NCBI GenBank assembly: GCA_937927195.1
Contig: CALBCY010000170.1
Span: 1 to 64,000 of the forward strand
Source of the DNA: an uncultured Chitinophagales bacterium
Lineage (GTDB): Bacteria > Bacteroidota > Bacteroidia > Chitinophagales > UBA2359
Direction of reading: 5' to 3'
DNA: 64,000 nt
The translations under genes and the position numbers were made by a program. A model generated the notes under the pieces. The model did no database searches. It saw nothing but the letters and a program-made list of their open reading frames with translations, and had not been told where the DNA came from. How positions within the stretch are numbered: position 1 is the stretch's first letter; each line of letters begins with the position of its first letter. Positions 42,475-47,575 of the stretch are shown in pieces.

Positions 42475-44037
42475 CTAGATTTTAGTGTTCTTCGAATTGT
42501 TCGAATTGTTCGAGTTTGAATTGTTTCTGTTAGCGTTATTTCTATTGCGATTCGAATTAGACGTTTTGTTTTGGTTCCCACCAGAACCGCCTGAATTATT
42601 GTCATTCTTCGGTCCAGAAGTCCGGTTATTGGATGATTGACCACCTCCGTTGCCACTTCCATCAGACTTTTTCTTACCAGACCAAGATTTCTTCTTGCCC
42701 CATTTTTTGTTTCCTCCAGAGCGATTGTTTCCTCCGCCACCTGAGTGACCTCTTCCACCACCACCTCTAGAAGGTTTTCCATCTTTGTATTCAGGACCCT
42801 CACCAAGTTCCTTTGGTAAAGCAGGCTTCTCAACCGTCCTTTTCATCAACTTTTCGATATTCTTGAATTTGTAAGCATCTCTATCTGTAATGAAAGTAAC
42901 GGCTTCTCCTTCTGATTTGGCTCTTGCTGTACGGCCAATTCTGTGGATGTAATCTTCTGCATCGTGTGGTACATCATAATTGATAACCATGCCAATGTTA
43001 TTGATATCAATTCCACGGGACATCACATCGGTTGCAACCAAAATTCTGATTCTGTTTGCACGGAATTTTTGAATGGCAATTTCACGATCTTCTTGTGCCA
43101 ATTCGGAATGCATTTCAGCAACAGAGAATTTTTCTTTTTTCAACTGTCTCGCGATCAGTTTCGTGCTCTTTTTTGAAGAGCAGAAAATAACGATGTTTAT
43201 GTCTTTTTTGTCTTTGAGAATGGTTCTAAGAAGTGGCAGTTTTTGAGGCTCATAAGCCATGTAAGCCGTTTGGGTGATTCCTTCTGCAGGTTGAGAAAGC
43301 GCGATTGTTATTTCACCCGGATCCGTTAATATCTCCTTGGCCAGCGTCCTGATTTTAGGTGGCATGGTTGCAGAAAACATCAGTGTTTGTTTACGATTGG
43401 GAAGTCTTTTTATTATTTTAACAAGATCTTCAGAAAAGCCCATGTCGAGCATTCGGTCAGCCTCGTCAAGTACCAAATGTTCAACCGCATCAAGATTGGC
43501 ATATTTGAAATCTAAATGGGCAAGCAGTCTTCCAGGAGTTCCAATAATTAATTGTGTTCCTTGCTTCAAGGCTCTTTGTTGATTCCCCCAAGCCCCAGGA
43601 TTCTTTCCTCCGTAAATGGCGATGGAAGTAACATTCATTGTATAAGCAAATCCTTCCATTTGCCTGTCAATTTGTTGGGCCAATTCTCTGGTTGGAACAA
43701 CAATTAAGGTATTGGAATTTTGAATGTTTTCTTTTTGAATTTTGTTGATAATTGGCAGTAAAAAGGCTGCGGTTTTACCAGTTCCTGTTTGAGCACAAGC
43801 GATTAAATCTCTGCCTTCTTGAATGAGTGGAATGGCTTGTTGTTGAATTGGGGTGGGATTGATAAAGCGCATCATTTGCAAGCTGTCGAGCAATTCTTCC
43901 TCAAAGCCAAAGTCTGCAAAGACCATTTCAGGTTTCTCAGTGCTTTCGGTATTTTCTTTTTTCGATCCTTCTTCAGGTTGAGCGGCTTTCTCTAAAGCTT
44001 CTCTTTCTATTCTTTCTAACTTAGTTTCTTCGCTCAT
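42475..44037 (-). CDS. DEAD-box RNA helicase, RhlE-like
   Basis: 520 residues. All core motifs are visible: Q motif (TPIQQQAIP), motif I (AQTGTGKTAA), Ia (PTRELA), Ib (TPGRL), II (DEAD), III (SAT), and motif VI (HRIGRTAR). A low-complexity tail (about 400-520) rich in Gly, Ser, Asn and Lys follows, as in RhlE/CshA-like proteins that act in ribosome assembly and RNA decay at low temperature. The vWA-membrane gene lies 46 bases upstream on the same strand, so the two may share a transcript. Confidence 0.92.
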   Translation of the reverse strand: MSEETKLERIEREALEKAAQPEEGSKKENTESTEKPEMVFADFGFEEELLDSLQMMRFINPTPIQQQAIPLIQEGRDLIACAQTGTGKTAAFLLPIINKIQKENIQNSNTLIVVPTRELAQQIDRQMEGFAYTMNVTSIAIYGGKNPGAWGNQQRALKQGTQLIIGTPGRLLAHLDFKYANLDAVEHLVLDEADRMLDMGFSEDLVKIIKRLPNRKQTLMFSATMPPKIRTLAKEILTDPGEITIALSQPAEGITQTAYMAYEPQKLPLLRTILKDKKDINIVIFCSSKKSTKLIARQLKKEKFSVAEMHSELAQEDREIAIQKFRANRIRILVATDVMSRGIDINNIGMVINYDVPHDAEDYIHRIGRTARAKSEGEAVTFITDRDAYKFKNIEKLMKRTVEKPALPKELGEGPEYKDGKPSRGGGGRGHSGGGGNNRSGGNKKWGKKKSWSGKKKSDGSGNGGGQSSNNRTSGPKNDNNSGGSGGNQNKTSNSNRNRNNANRNNSNSNNSNNSKNTKI

Positions 44038-44083: not shown

Positions 44084-45520
44084 TTAAAATCCAATGTAGA
44101 ATCCGCCATTTTGTTTGGCCATATTTTTCATAAATGTCACTTTGGGATCTTTACTTCCCTGGTTTCTGTAGCCTTCACCAACCCCGATTGTGTTGATGAC
44201 TTTCTTACCAGTGTTTAATTTTTTTATATAACTCAATACATCTTTTGGTGGATCGTCGGGACAATCCGTGCTACCAGCAACTGATTTTGTTGGCAATCCG
44301 TCAGAAAGAAAGGTAATGGTACCTGCATCTTTATAGGCGGGGCTGGTCAAAACATGTTCTAAAACAGCCCTGGTTGGGGTGCAATTTCGTGCAAATATAG
44401 GAGATAAATGACGGTAAATGGCATATTTCTGTTTATCTGTTACTGGAGCGAGTCTGTTATACAAGGCATCCCAGTCCTCTTTTGGGCTTTTTGGGAAGAT
44501 AACTATGTCTATTTTATAGCTTTCATCCATCGATGCAACCAACATTTTAAGGCCAGCTTTTACCTGATCCAGCTTTTCTGGTTCTGGCTCATCGTCCATA
44601 CTACCCGAGACATCCACTACAAAAACCATGCTTTTACCAGAGAATTTCAATCCAGTTTTAGATTCCTTGGTTCCTCCAGTATCTTTTTCATCTTTCTTGG
44701 CCAACTCATTTTGCGCATTTTCGAGTTGCTTTTGTAAAACTGCATTGGATTTTTTCAGTTTAGCATTCTGACTTTCCAATGTTTCTATCTTTTTAACCAT
44801 TTTCTCAACCGCAGTCTCTACATATTCGCGATCATCACTGGTTTTGGATAATTCTTTAGACAATTCTTTATTTTGCGAGACCAATTCTTCAATTTTAGCA
44901 CGCATTTCAGCCAAAGCATCTGTCAATGCCTTCTTGTCTTCCAAACATTTCATTAAATCCGCCTTTTGATTGACAAGTTGAGTGTTCAATTTACTGGTAG
45001 CAGAAGAGGCATCTGTTTGTGCCAATTGCAGTGCTTCCAGCATTTTTTGGGATTCAGATTGGTTCTTTTTGAGGTTTTCCAGCTCCGATTTAAGTTTTTT
45101 GTTTTCCACAGCCAATTTATTGCCATCTTTCATTTGACTTTTCAGGGTTTTCACCTGTTCTGTCAATTTAACGCTTCTTTCCTCCGCAGTTGTTTTGGCT
45201 TCATCGAGCTTGGCCATTTGCGTTTGCAATTGTTTAACCTGGTTCTTTAAATCCCCCAAGTTGCTTTCCAAACTGTTCAAATCTCCTTTCAAGCTGCTCA
45301 ATTGCTCTTTTGGGACCGATCCCTCTAACTTAGAAAGTTTGTTTTGAATTTCGGTAACGTCCATTGAGAGTTCCTTGAAAGTCTCTAGTTCCTGCAACTG
45401 TTGCCTTATTTTACTGTCTAGTTTTGGAACAATCACAAAAAGGATAAGAACCGCTCCTAAAGCTCCTGAAAGTAAGTCCAGAAAAGAAACATTAAATACG
45501 TTGATTTCTTTTTTTGCCAT
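44084..45520 (-). CDS. MotB/ExbD-like membrane helix, coiled coil and vWA domain protein
   Basis: 478 residues. One membrane helix at residues 7-30 (NVSFLDLLSGALGAVLILF) carries an Asp at the place where MotB, ExbD and TolR have their proton-carrying Asp. A long coiled coil follows (about 32-285). The C-terminal vWA domain (about 295-478) has a complete metal site: DVSGSM, Thr in CTPTRAV, and SDG. The N-terminus faces the cytoplasm if the topology is like MotB. This is not a standard MotB (no OmpA-type peptidoglycan domain). No MotA/ExbB partner is in the window. The function is unknown and unusual; see findings. Confidence 0.75.
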   Translation of the reverse strand: MAKKEINVFNVSFLDLLSGALGAVLILFVIVPKLDSKIRQQLQELETFKELSMDVTEIQNKLSKLEGSVPKEQLSSLKGDLNSLESNLGDLKNQVKQLQTQMAKLDEAKTTAEERSVKLTEQVKTLKSQMKDGNKLAVENKKLKSELENLKKNQSESQKMLEALQLAQTDASSATSKLNTQLVNQKADLMKCLEDKKALTDALAEMRAKIEELVSQNKELSKELSKTSDDREYVETAVEKMVKKIETLESQNAKLKKSNAVLQKQLENAQNELAKKDEKDTGGTKESKTGLKFSGKSMVFVVDVSGSMDDEPEPEKLDQVKAGLKMLVASMDESYKIDIVIFPKSPKEDWDALYNRLAPVTDKQKYAIYRHLSPIFARNCTPTRAVLEHVLTSPAYKDAGTITFLSDGLPTKSVAGSTDCPDDPPKDVLSYIKKLNTGKKVINTIGVGEGYRNQGSKDPKVTFMKNMAKQNGGFYIGF

Positions 45521-46048
45521 GTAGCCTCGCTGTCTAAATTTTTATTGGGACTATTTTTCGTGAAATGTAGTCCTTTTAATAGGGTAAAGATAAGGATTTA
45601 ATCTATGGATTTTTGTTGTTGTCTAAGAAAGTAGTTTTATGGTAAAATGGTATATTTTTCTAGCTTTCTTTTATCTTAAACTTGAAATTATGCCCAATCA
45701 TTGTTCATCATTAATACTTCTCATCGTATTTACTTAGGATTTACTTAATATTTACTCATTATTTTGAAATCATCGTGTCCGATTTTCTGCTTTTCTACAA
45801 CACTTCATTTCCTGCGGCGCCTCCTTGCTGACTTGATCGGGCTGCGCTTTCATTCCTGATCCCGCACAAGCATCACTGTATTAAAAAATGCTTGATTTGT
45901 GCGCTGTTTTAGTTGTATTTTATAATTTTGAGAAATTACTGAGCTATCCAAAAAAATGACTATTTTCGAAGCAAATAAGTAATGCTTTAAATGTTAACAA
46001 TCCAAAAACTAAAGTCCAAAATCTAGCATCAAAAAATTCTAGAGTGAA
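45521..46048. other. Divergent promoter region with a GC-rich patch
   Basis: This 528-base gap separates the divergent vWA and PP2C genes. A GC-rich patch at 45807-45875 (TGCGGCGCCTCCTTGCTGAC; ATCGGGCTGCGC) stands out from its AT-rich surroundings. TATTTTCG at 45961-45968 is a one-mismatch Bacteroidota -7 box for the PP2C gene. I see no small gene. Confidence 0.4.
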
Positions 46049-47575
46049 ATGAAGTTCAAAATAGACCAGCCAATGTTCTTAAATGAACAAGGTAAAAGGC
46101 AAAACAATGAGGACAGTATCTTCCCTGCTCCTGAAAACGCTACATCAGCCGATAGACTATTCTTGGTCTGCGACGGAGTAGGTGGTTCAGAAAAAGGAGA
46201 GATCGCTTCAAAAATGGTTTGTGAAACCTTTAGCCAATCTCTGCTTAGCCGAACGGAATCAAATCCACAAAAAGACTTCTTTGAAAAAGCGGTTCTTGAT
46301 GCCGAGGCTGCAATGTCTGCTCACATTAAAAAGTTGCCTTCTTGCAATGGAATGAAAACTACTTTGACCTATTTATGGCTGAGAGCTGAAGGTGCTTACA
46401 TCGGATGGGTAGGGGACAGCAGGATTTATCATTTTAGGAATGGTAAAATTATATACAGAAGTGAAGATCATTCTTTGGTGAATGAAATGGTGAAAAGAGG
46501 AGAAATTACTGAAGAAGAAGCACAATGGCATCCACATTCAAATTTGATCCTTCGAGCAGTTGCTGGACAACATGAACCAACTGAATTGGATTTGCTTCAA
46601 ATCAGTGACATTCAGCCGGGAGATATTTTTATGCTTTGCACTGACGGTGTTACAGAAAATTTAACAGAAACGAACCTGGCCGAATTGTCCAGTTTGGGTG
46701 ATTTGGAAATGATGAAAGAGCAAATCCAAATATTTTGTGAAGATTTCTCTAAAGACAATTACTCTCTTTATTTGATTAAAATTGACGAAGTCGAACAGTC
46801 AAAACCAGAGGCAGTTGGAACGAACAATAAATTGGGAAGCGATTCAGCAGGTTCAGAATCCGATACGCAAAGCAACTTGCGTGAAGAAAATCAAACTGAA
46901 TTAAAAGAGGATAAAAAAGAAACCGTAAAAAGTGGGAACAATCTGGTTAAATACATGGTTGCCGGACTTGGATTGATTGGGCTTTTCATTGGCAGTTTTA
47001 TATTTTACAACAAACAAAAAGAAAACGCCGCTTTTGAAAGGGTCAATGGTTTCGTCTCAAAATCTGTATTCCATGAGCAACAAGGAAATCTGGATTCAGC
47101 GATGCATTATTTAGAATTGGCCGATGCTGAAAAAGTAGCAGGCAATGACATCAAGGCCAAGATTTTTGATTTGGACAATAAAGAAAATGAACTGGCAAGA
47201 CAAGATTCATTGAAGGTGGTTAATGCTTACAGAGATTCCATTAGTCGAAGTTTTAATGAACAAATTTCTACAATAGGTTCAGACATCAATTTCATCAAAG
47301 CCGATGACCTAATTTCTTCCAAAGACAAAGAACGAAAAATTGTCGCTTTGGAATATCAGCGTGAAATTATTGAAGCAAAAAAACAATTGCAACTCGGTGA
47401 ATTAGAACTGTCTTTTGACCTATTGCATAAAATTAGAAAGGACAGTTTTGCCATTCAATTCCTCGATAAAGAAGCATGGTTGATTTTAGGTAAACTGGTT
47501 CCAAGCTTTGTTAAGAATGATTCGATTCGTAAAGTGGAAGTAGCGTTTTGTCGTGAAATGGCGAACAATTTGTAG
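46049..47575 (+). CDS. PP2C-type protein phosphatase with membrane helix and helical C-domain
   Basis: 508 residues. The PP2C domain (about 1-250) has the metal-binding motifs NNEDS, CDGVGG, GDSRIY and CTDGV. A polar linker leads to one membrane helix (about 300-322, MVAGLGLIGLFIGSFIFY) and a helical, partly TPR-like domain (about 330-508). The phosphatase is therefore cytosolic and the C-domain outside the inner membrane or the reverse, depending on topology. PP2C enzymes remove Ser/Thr phosphates set by Hanks-type kinases. No kinase is in the window. It is transcribed divergently from the vWA-MotB-like gene. Confidence 0.87.
   Translation: MKFKIDQPMFLNEQGKRQNNEDSIFPAPENATSADRLFLVCDGVGGSEKGEIASKMVCETFSQSLLSRTESNPQKDFFEKAVLDAEAAMSAHIKKLPSCNGMKTTLTYLWLRAEGAYIGWVGDSRIYHFRNGKIIYRSEDHSLVNEMVKRGEITEEEAQWHPHSNLILRAVAGQHEPTELDLLQISDIQPGDIFMLCTDGVTENLTETNLAELSSLGDLEMMKEQIQIFCEDFSKDNYSLYLIKIDEVEQSKPEAVGTNNKLGSDSAGSESDTQSNLREENQTELKEDKKETVKSGNNLVKYMVAGLGLIGLFIGSFIFYNKQKENAAFERVNGFVSKSVFHEQQGNLDSAMHYLELADAEKVAGNDIKAKIFDLDNKENELARQDSLKVVNAYRDSISRSFNEQISTIGSDINFIKADDLISSKDKERKIVALEYQREIIEAKKQLQLGELELSFDLLHKIRKDSFAIQFLDKEAWLILGKLVPSFVKNDSIRKVEVAFCREMANNL

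Follow-up and report, generated by a model that had tools for sequence, protein, structure and literature searches.

The arm gene, which lies in a window (the whole stretch of DNA analysed) of 64,000 nt from an uncultured Chitinophagales bacterium, encoded a protein with an N-terminal helix, a coiled coil and a vWA domain. This protein is probably the inner B subunit of an ion-driven motor of the 5:2 type, in which the vWA domain forms part of an arm and which is tied to Ser/Thr phosphorylation. The assignment draws on the computed family membership of a channel protein encoded on another contig of the same genome, on the conservation of an Asp in the arm protein and of Thr residues in the channel, on the co-occurrence of the two genes, and on how the genes cluster and which domains they encode. 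A vWA protein carrying a trans-pore helix (TPH-vWA) has already been proposed in print as a general idea, and the tie to Ser/Thr phosphorylation is the most interesting feature here.

Organization of the arm gene and its product

The features identified in the arm gene and its surroundings are listed in Table 1. In the translated ORF, residues 13–28 read FLDLLSGALGAVLILF, the same letters as in the initial annotation, and hydropathy analysis indicated a single transmembrane (TM) region with the best window at residues 13–31, preceded by a short, basic N-tail. A coiled coil was assigned to about residues 36–280 from weak matches to coiled-coil families and from the AlphaFold2 model, which was of low confidence (pLDDT 47) and in which a near-continuous helix extended over residues 55–277. 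Residues 298–346 matched Pfam VWA_2 with an E value of 9.8e-6 and 26.6 bits, the curated cut-off being 27. The vWA region aligned over its full length in all 16 of the other family proteins, and all 17 family proteins, that of the window included, had the metal-site motifs DxSxS, CTPT/S, and SDGxPT; the first of these motifs was LDVSGS in L084. Two records, L083 and L084, had the lengths and gene layout of L016 and L017, and they were treated as the same records and counted once.

The ORF, the hydropathy, the VWA_2 match, and the motifs in 17/17 proteins bear out the architecture read by the initial annotation, namely an N-terminal acidic helix, then a coiled coil, then a vWA domain whose metal site is intact. 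Its statement that the peptidoglycan-binding domain is replaced also held, as a vWA domain was present instead and no OmpA-like peptidoglycan-binding domain was among the 25 of 55 Pfam matches listed for the arm protein. A plasmid search with the window protein gave no match. A gene for a DEAD-box helicase (recognized by eye), at nt 42475–44037 (-), follows the arm gene on the same strand after 46 bp; it was present in L016 and absent in L017, and is probably unrelated.

Table 1 Features of the arm gene and the adjacent region of the window
Feature	Position (nt)	Strand	Basis
Helix (TPH)–coiled-coil–vWA protein, 478 aa, putative motor B subunit	44084..45520	-	ATG-started ORF, relatives, conservation
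N-terminal trans-pore helix, residues 12-33	45422..45487	-	Hydropathy, 84% mean pairwise identity, Asp conservation
Asp15 codon, in N-terminal helix	45476-45478	-	
Coiled-coil stalk, about residues 37-285	44666..45412	-	Coiled-coil family matches, low-confidence model, conservation
vWA domain with metal-site motifs, residues 295-478	44084..44638	-	VWA_2, full-length family matches, motifs
Intergenic region, 528 bp, between the divergent arm and PP2C genes	45521..46048	.	Coordinates
Divergent PP2C phosphatase, 508 aa, one TM at residues 302-320, C-terminal part beyond the membrane	46049..47575	+	PF13672, TM prediction

Conservation of the N-terminal helix

Varied degrees of identity were shared by the 17 family proteins along their length, the mean pairwise values being 84% for the TM segment (residues 12–33), 59% for the vWA domain, and 31% for the coil (residues 61–285); the helix is under strong constraint. 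A larger set of 24 helix sequences comprised members of the window's family and of three further Bacteroidota families, a Bacteroidales MAG, and a Rhizobium plasmid. The Asp singled out by the initial annotation, which had regarded its loss in homologues as evidence against the proposed role, was conserved at position 15 in 23 of these 24 aligned sequences, f39-type and Rhizobium relatives included. In the lone exception, L098:8522-9814 (genome G396, 98% complete), the residue was Ile and the flanking motif was changed, with no sign of a frameshift; the vWA domain and coil were intact, and the channel gene of G396 was present without its usual FHA neighbour. This genome could carry a decayed or altered system, or one in transition. 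Because G396 has Ile at this position yet retains the gene, the case for an absolute need for the Asp is weakened.

The likeness of the helix to MotB and ExbD, which had been proposed from alignment by eye, was not recovered by profile methods. No match to PF02472 (ExbD/TolR) was among the 25 of 55 Pfam matches listed for the window protein, and the window gene was not among the matches of a genome-wide PF02472 search. Comparison of the 24 helices with 20 family ExbD N-termini by hhalign gave a probability of 0.5% (E = 0.12, not significant), a score within the range of 50 column shuffles and below that of the control, an unrelated PP2C TM (17.9%). A PDB profile search with the helix returned no ExbD or MotB and nothing relevant. 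In the ZorB comparison, also suggested at the outset, the Rhizobium arm protein weakly matched ZorB1 of the PADLOC models in the helix register (E = 0.009), and this was the sole profile hint. Since the ExbD profile tests failed, the motor link rests on the partner gene and the conservation of the Asp, not on direct helix homology. A search of the window's own genome with the codon pattern of the helix core (DLLSGA) gave 7 matches; besides the window gene, six were taken for chance, and at one of these, L012, no such protein was seen.

Identification of a channel partner on a separate contig

A profile search revealed three PF01618 genes in the genome, none of them on the window's contig. This agrees with the initial annotation, which had noted the lack of a MotA partner in the window and had expected a distant gene; the candidate is a 249-aa protein of the MotA/TolQ/ExbB family encoded on contig C16 (G000:C16:21403-22149). 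The C16 channel matched PF01618 over the cut-off (E = 5.6e-12), as did the channel of the Bacteroidales contig L018 (E = 4.5e-16), which was 45% identical and encoded immediately after a protein carrying the N-terminal helix of the arm protein. Hydropathy analysis of the C16 channel showed four hydrophobic regions with a loop of about 95 residues between the middle two, which is the layout of MotA, and the C-terminus lay about 26 residues past the last TM. The AlphaFold2 model of the L018 channel (pLDDT 44) was too poor to use.

In a PDB profile search with the channel, only TolQ was found, at an E value of 0.067. Two residues, Thr172 and Thr206 (L004 numbering), were invariant in 18 of 18 channels, and HMMER paired them with the GTV and AT motifs of TolQ in that match of E = 0.067. 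A feature of 5:2 ion-driven motors, conserved polar (Thr) residues in the two final TM helices of the pentamer protein, is shared by these channels. MotA-like proteins also matched ZorA2 models weakly (E = 1.8e-7 and 5.9e-7). ExbD genes (PF02472) were located on the contigs of the other two PF01618 genes, one on C272 and four on C78; on the channel's contig, some of these contigs being short, no PF02472 gene was found in any of the 15 family genomes carrying the channel.

Co-occurrence of the channel and arm genes

Among 395 sampled genomes of the phylum, the channel and the helix protein were both found in exactly the same six (G000, G215, G223, G266, G270, and G392), which span four families. 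The first channel profile, built from two sequences, found six of the 395 genomes, and the first helix search found five of these six together with three marginal matches (E = 0.003–0.009). A wider helix profile, built without G215, recovered G215, gave a single arm match for every one of the six genomes, and produced three new marginal matches near E = 0.007. The three marginal matches of the first search disappeared with the wider profile and were dropped as chance; those in genus g60 (L137-L139, E about 0.007) were likewise judged to be chance, as no arm-like ORF was present there. With a wider channel profile, the same six genomes scored at least 302 bits and the next best match 51.7 bits; 61 other genomes matched at E = 1e-6 or better with low scores and were taken to carry ordinary ExbB-type proteins. 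The match of 51.7 bits (G048:C30:1855-2148, L145), from genus g60, falls between the six clear channels and the ordinary ExbB-type proteins, and perhaps represents a further branch.

In the window's family (20 genomes), the helix protein was found in 17 genomes, the channel in 15, and both in 13. The seven genomes that did not carry both genes were all 90% complete or less, and both genes were carried by all of the high-quality genomes (8/8). A missing channel in related genomes had also been named by the initial annotation as evidence against its reading; the two genes were instead found together, both in the phylum sample and in the family.

Kinase, FHA and PP2C genes

The gene divergent from the arm gene encoded a PP2C phosphatase matching PF13672 (E = 8.6e-15), in which all but one of the catalytic patterns tried were found exactly, GWVGDSR occurring at the remaining position. 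The intergenic region between the two genes presumably houses both promoters. This divergent arrangement was observed in 15 of 17 family loci; as to the two exceptions, the sequence of L092 stops 289 bp upstream, and in L094 the place is taken by other genes. On C16, an operon-like run consisted of genes for a kinase (466 aa), a zinc-ribbon/FHA protein (the zinc ribbon being recognized by eye), and the channel. An FHA gene immediately preceded the channel gene in 14 of 15 family loci; in 11 of 15, the stretch with the channel encoded a kinase. The kinase of the window's genome (L004:11351-12751) had no TM and no vWA match, and five of five catalytic patterns tried were intact; no TM was predicted for the FHA protein of this genome. 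The arm and channel genes were unlinked in the window's family. The association with kinase, FHA, and PP2C genes had escaped the initial annotation.

Outside the family, the channel, arm, and PP2C genes were in one cluster in all seven loci read. The channel and arm genes were directly adjacent in L018, L027, L028, and L101, and the PP2C gene was located between them in L029, L030, and L082. A kinase gene was part of the cluster in six of the seven, L082 (a 5.9-kb contig) being without one. The order in L027 and L028 was channel – arm – FHA-TM-trypsin – PP2C – zinc-ribbon/FHA – kinase/FHA. In L101, from a Rhizobium leguminosarum plasmid, the channel matched PF01618 (E = 5.9e-10) and the kinase was assigned by Pfam, with PP2C and FHA recognized by eye.

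The L101 cluster (L101:2561-15814) contained genes for PP2C, FHA, a 1180-aa kinase with PDZ domains, a second PP2C, the channel, and the arm protein, as well as for a small protein that looks secreted and a low-complexity protein of 1610 aa. Genes for FHA–TM–trypsin-like proteases were observed in three clusters (L018:4222-5730, L027:7643-9145, and L028:7479-9047); a search of the window's genome for the L028 protein found none.

End domains of related arm proteins

The f39-type arms end in a vWA domain, as identified by Pfam in L030 and L082 and by eye in L029. The arm ends of L018, L027, L028, and L101 gave no globular Pfam match (for L027, among the best 25 of 57); their end domain, we presume, resembles the YfaP/DUF2135 type. 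The end domains of L028 and L101 were related (BLASTP E = 2e-9), and those of L028 and L018 weakly so (E = 0.016). Judged from these sequences, the arm is modular, with vWA in two lineages and a different domain in others. The swapping of arm domains suggests that the motor core may be a general adaptor for different periplasmic tasks.

Proposed motor and its regulation

Kinase and phospho-binding genes adjoin the channel gene, and this suggests that the motor is switched through phosphorylation of proteins. The assembly, stoichiometry, topology, ion use, direction of signalling, and vWA ligand that we infer for such a motor would be as follows. The arm protein would be a dimeric inner subunit in the position of MotB/ExbD, two copies being held inside five MotA-like C16 subunits, with the basic N-tail in the cytoplasm and the Asp15 helix within the pentamer. 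The coiled coil and the metal-site vWA domain would constitute a periplasmic arm gripping a partner that may be located at the outer membrane or cell wall. Passage of ions past Asp15 and the threonine ring of the pentamer would cause relative movement, by which the arm would be turned or pulled, and the coiled coil would convey this pentamer-driven movement to the vWA grip. The on/off or assembly state would be set by the soluble Ser/Thr kinase, the FHA protein, and the membrane PP2C; the TM-less kinase and FHA protein would be in a position to act upon the channel's cytoplasmic loop, and the part of PP2C beyond its single TM could touch the arm.

With middling confidence, we extend the proposal to a class of ion-driven rotary motors that have a modular arm and on which reversible Ser/Thr phosphorylation acts directly as the gate; they would occur in several Bacteroidota families and on a Rhizobium plasmid. 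The arm being modular, the machine would therefore be a phosphorylation-switched gripper or an envelope stress sensor. To our knowledge, few regulators are known for the 5:2 motors described so far (MotAB, ExbBD, TolQR, GldLM, and ZorAB). A motor firmly wired to kinase, phosphatase, and FHA proteins of eukaryotic type would offer a clear way to study the switching of 5:2 motors, and would join two questions, the roles of orphan MotA/TolQ-family genes and the targets of Bacteroidota Ser/Thr kinases. The gene sets are compact and testable.

Comparison with known systems

MotAB consists of a four-TM channel and a B subunit with one N-terminal Asp helix and an arm outside the membrane; ExbB has three hydrophobic regions; and in the AglRQS–Glt gliding machine, CglB is a vWA surface adhesin. 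The proposed system resembles MotAB in the four hydrophobic regions of the channel, the single N-terminal Asp helix, and the external arm, but has a vWA domain in place of the OmpA-like peptidoglycan-binding domain and has signalling genes attached. With ExbBD/TolQR it shares a PF01618 channel, a one-helix Asp partner, and possibly the transfer of energy across the envelope; it differs in that the arm has neither a PF02472 match nor the small periplasmic domain of ExbD, and in that the channel has four hydrophobic regions rather than three. In common with ZorAB are the proposed role as a 5:2-type converter of signals from the envelope to the inside and the weak ZorA matches, whereas the long ZorA tail and the peptidoglycan-binding domain are lacking here; no Zorya effector was seen in the clusters read.

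A close published system, in the part of the paper available (PMC12204202, Mol Biol Evol 2025), comprises vWA proteins with an Asp-bearing trans-pore helix encoded beside tolQ-like genes without exbD. According to the same part, AF3 modelling placed TPH-vWA inside a TolQ-like pentamer, and these proteins occur mostly in Proteobacteria and Verrucomicrobia, predominantly as heterologous pairs; a kinase or forkhead is unmentioned in the main text as available. By that description, the N-terminal Asp helix, the external vWA, the pentamer gene of the TolQ/MotA family, and the absence of a separate exbD are shared, and the f39 loci L029, L030, and L082, with channel and vWA arm in one cluster, correspond to the synteny given there. 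The present system differs from that description in the single copy, the long coiled coil, the kinase/FHA/PP2C partners and, in the window's family, the arm gene unlinked to the channel. The initial annotation had proposed a stator-like protein with a binding domain of a new type; the stator-like reading is supported, but the general idea of the domain is found in the available part of PMC12204202.

A kinase, a PP2C, an FHA protein, and an extracytoplasmic vWA in one set are also known, from the available part of PMC3224232, for the threonine-phosphorylation pathway PpkA–PppA–Fha1 of T6SS; there the vWA is on the kinase, whereas here it is on the motor subunit and the kinase is TM-less. The AglRQS–Glt machine likewise combines a MotA/TolQ-type motor (AglR) with envelope-spanning partners, but has separate ExbD-type AglQ/AglS, and the available part of PMC3169522 notes no kinase/PP2C cluster and describes the machinery as not conserved in Bacteroidetes. 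In the open-licence PMC literature, no paper was found on a linked ExbB/TolQ/MotA and FHA/PP2C/kinase/vWA system, nor was an earlier description found of the phospho-signalling wiring, the swappable arm, or the split locus.

Alternative interpretations

It is possible, though doubtful, that the complex is a ZorAB-like sensor and not an engine, in which the vWA arm would sense the state of the envelope and an ion-driven or conformational change of the pentamer would inform the kinase, FHA, and PP2C proteins, the output being phosphorylation instead of force exerted on the outer membrane. Such a Zorya-like sensor is nearly as compatible with the data as the engine: signalling genes outnumber envelope genes in the clusters, MotA-like proteins match ZorA2 weakly and the Rhizobium arm matches ZorB1 (E = 0.009), and ZorAB is a phage-responsive 5:2 complex according to the available part of PMC11890865. 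ZorA, however, is described in that part with a long cytoplasmic tail, and the channel studied here stops about 26 residues after its last TM; moreover, the clusters read contain no effector nuclease or other clear output. The lack of a significant ExbD/MotB profile match, the loss of the Asp in one family member, and the position of PP2C rather than the channel as immediate neighbour of the arm gene would also fit a helix that is an ordinary membrane anchor, with the vWA domain as a periplasmic scaffold for the adjoining PP2C and ions uninvolved. This is improbable, as an ordinary anchor would not have to be better conserved than the rest of the protein, nor to keep a membrane Asp in 23 of 24 sequences, and as the arm co-occurs exactly with the channel over 395 genomes and the two genes are adjacent in other lineages.

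Pairing of the arm protein with an ordinary ExbB of C272 or C78 instead of the C16 channel is very unlikely indeed. Both of these channels exist in the genome and the arm gene has no linkage with C16, but the two contigs already carry ExbD genes, and many of the sampled genomes that lack the arm protein give ordinary ExbB-like matches. There is also little probability that the genes constitute a phage-defence module. Kinase–phosphatase modules can be defensive (PMC11341870, in the part available), and on plasmids of Anabaena and Microcystis, distant MotA-like relatives are accompanied by two ExbD-like genes, the Anabaena locus adjoining CRISPR III-B and viperin; nevertheless, the arm gene is nearly universal in the family (17/20 genomes) and its context is conserved, which differs from the patchy occurrence of a defence island, and no PADLOC model fits beyond coiled-coil and weak ZorA/ZorB matches.

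The plasmid loci of Anabaena (L099:8836-11415) and Microcystis (L100:8542-11142) each encoded a MotA-like protein of 466–470 aa and two different ExbD-like proteins. The neighbours of the former were type III-B CRISPR and viperin genes, and those of the latter N-6 methylase, helicase, and SLATT genes; the two loci possibly encode a defence motor with two B subunits.
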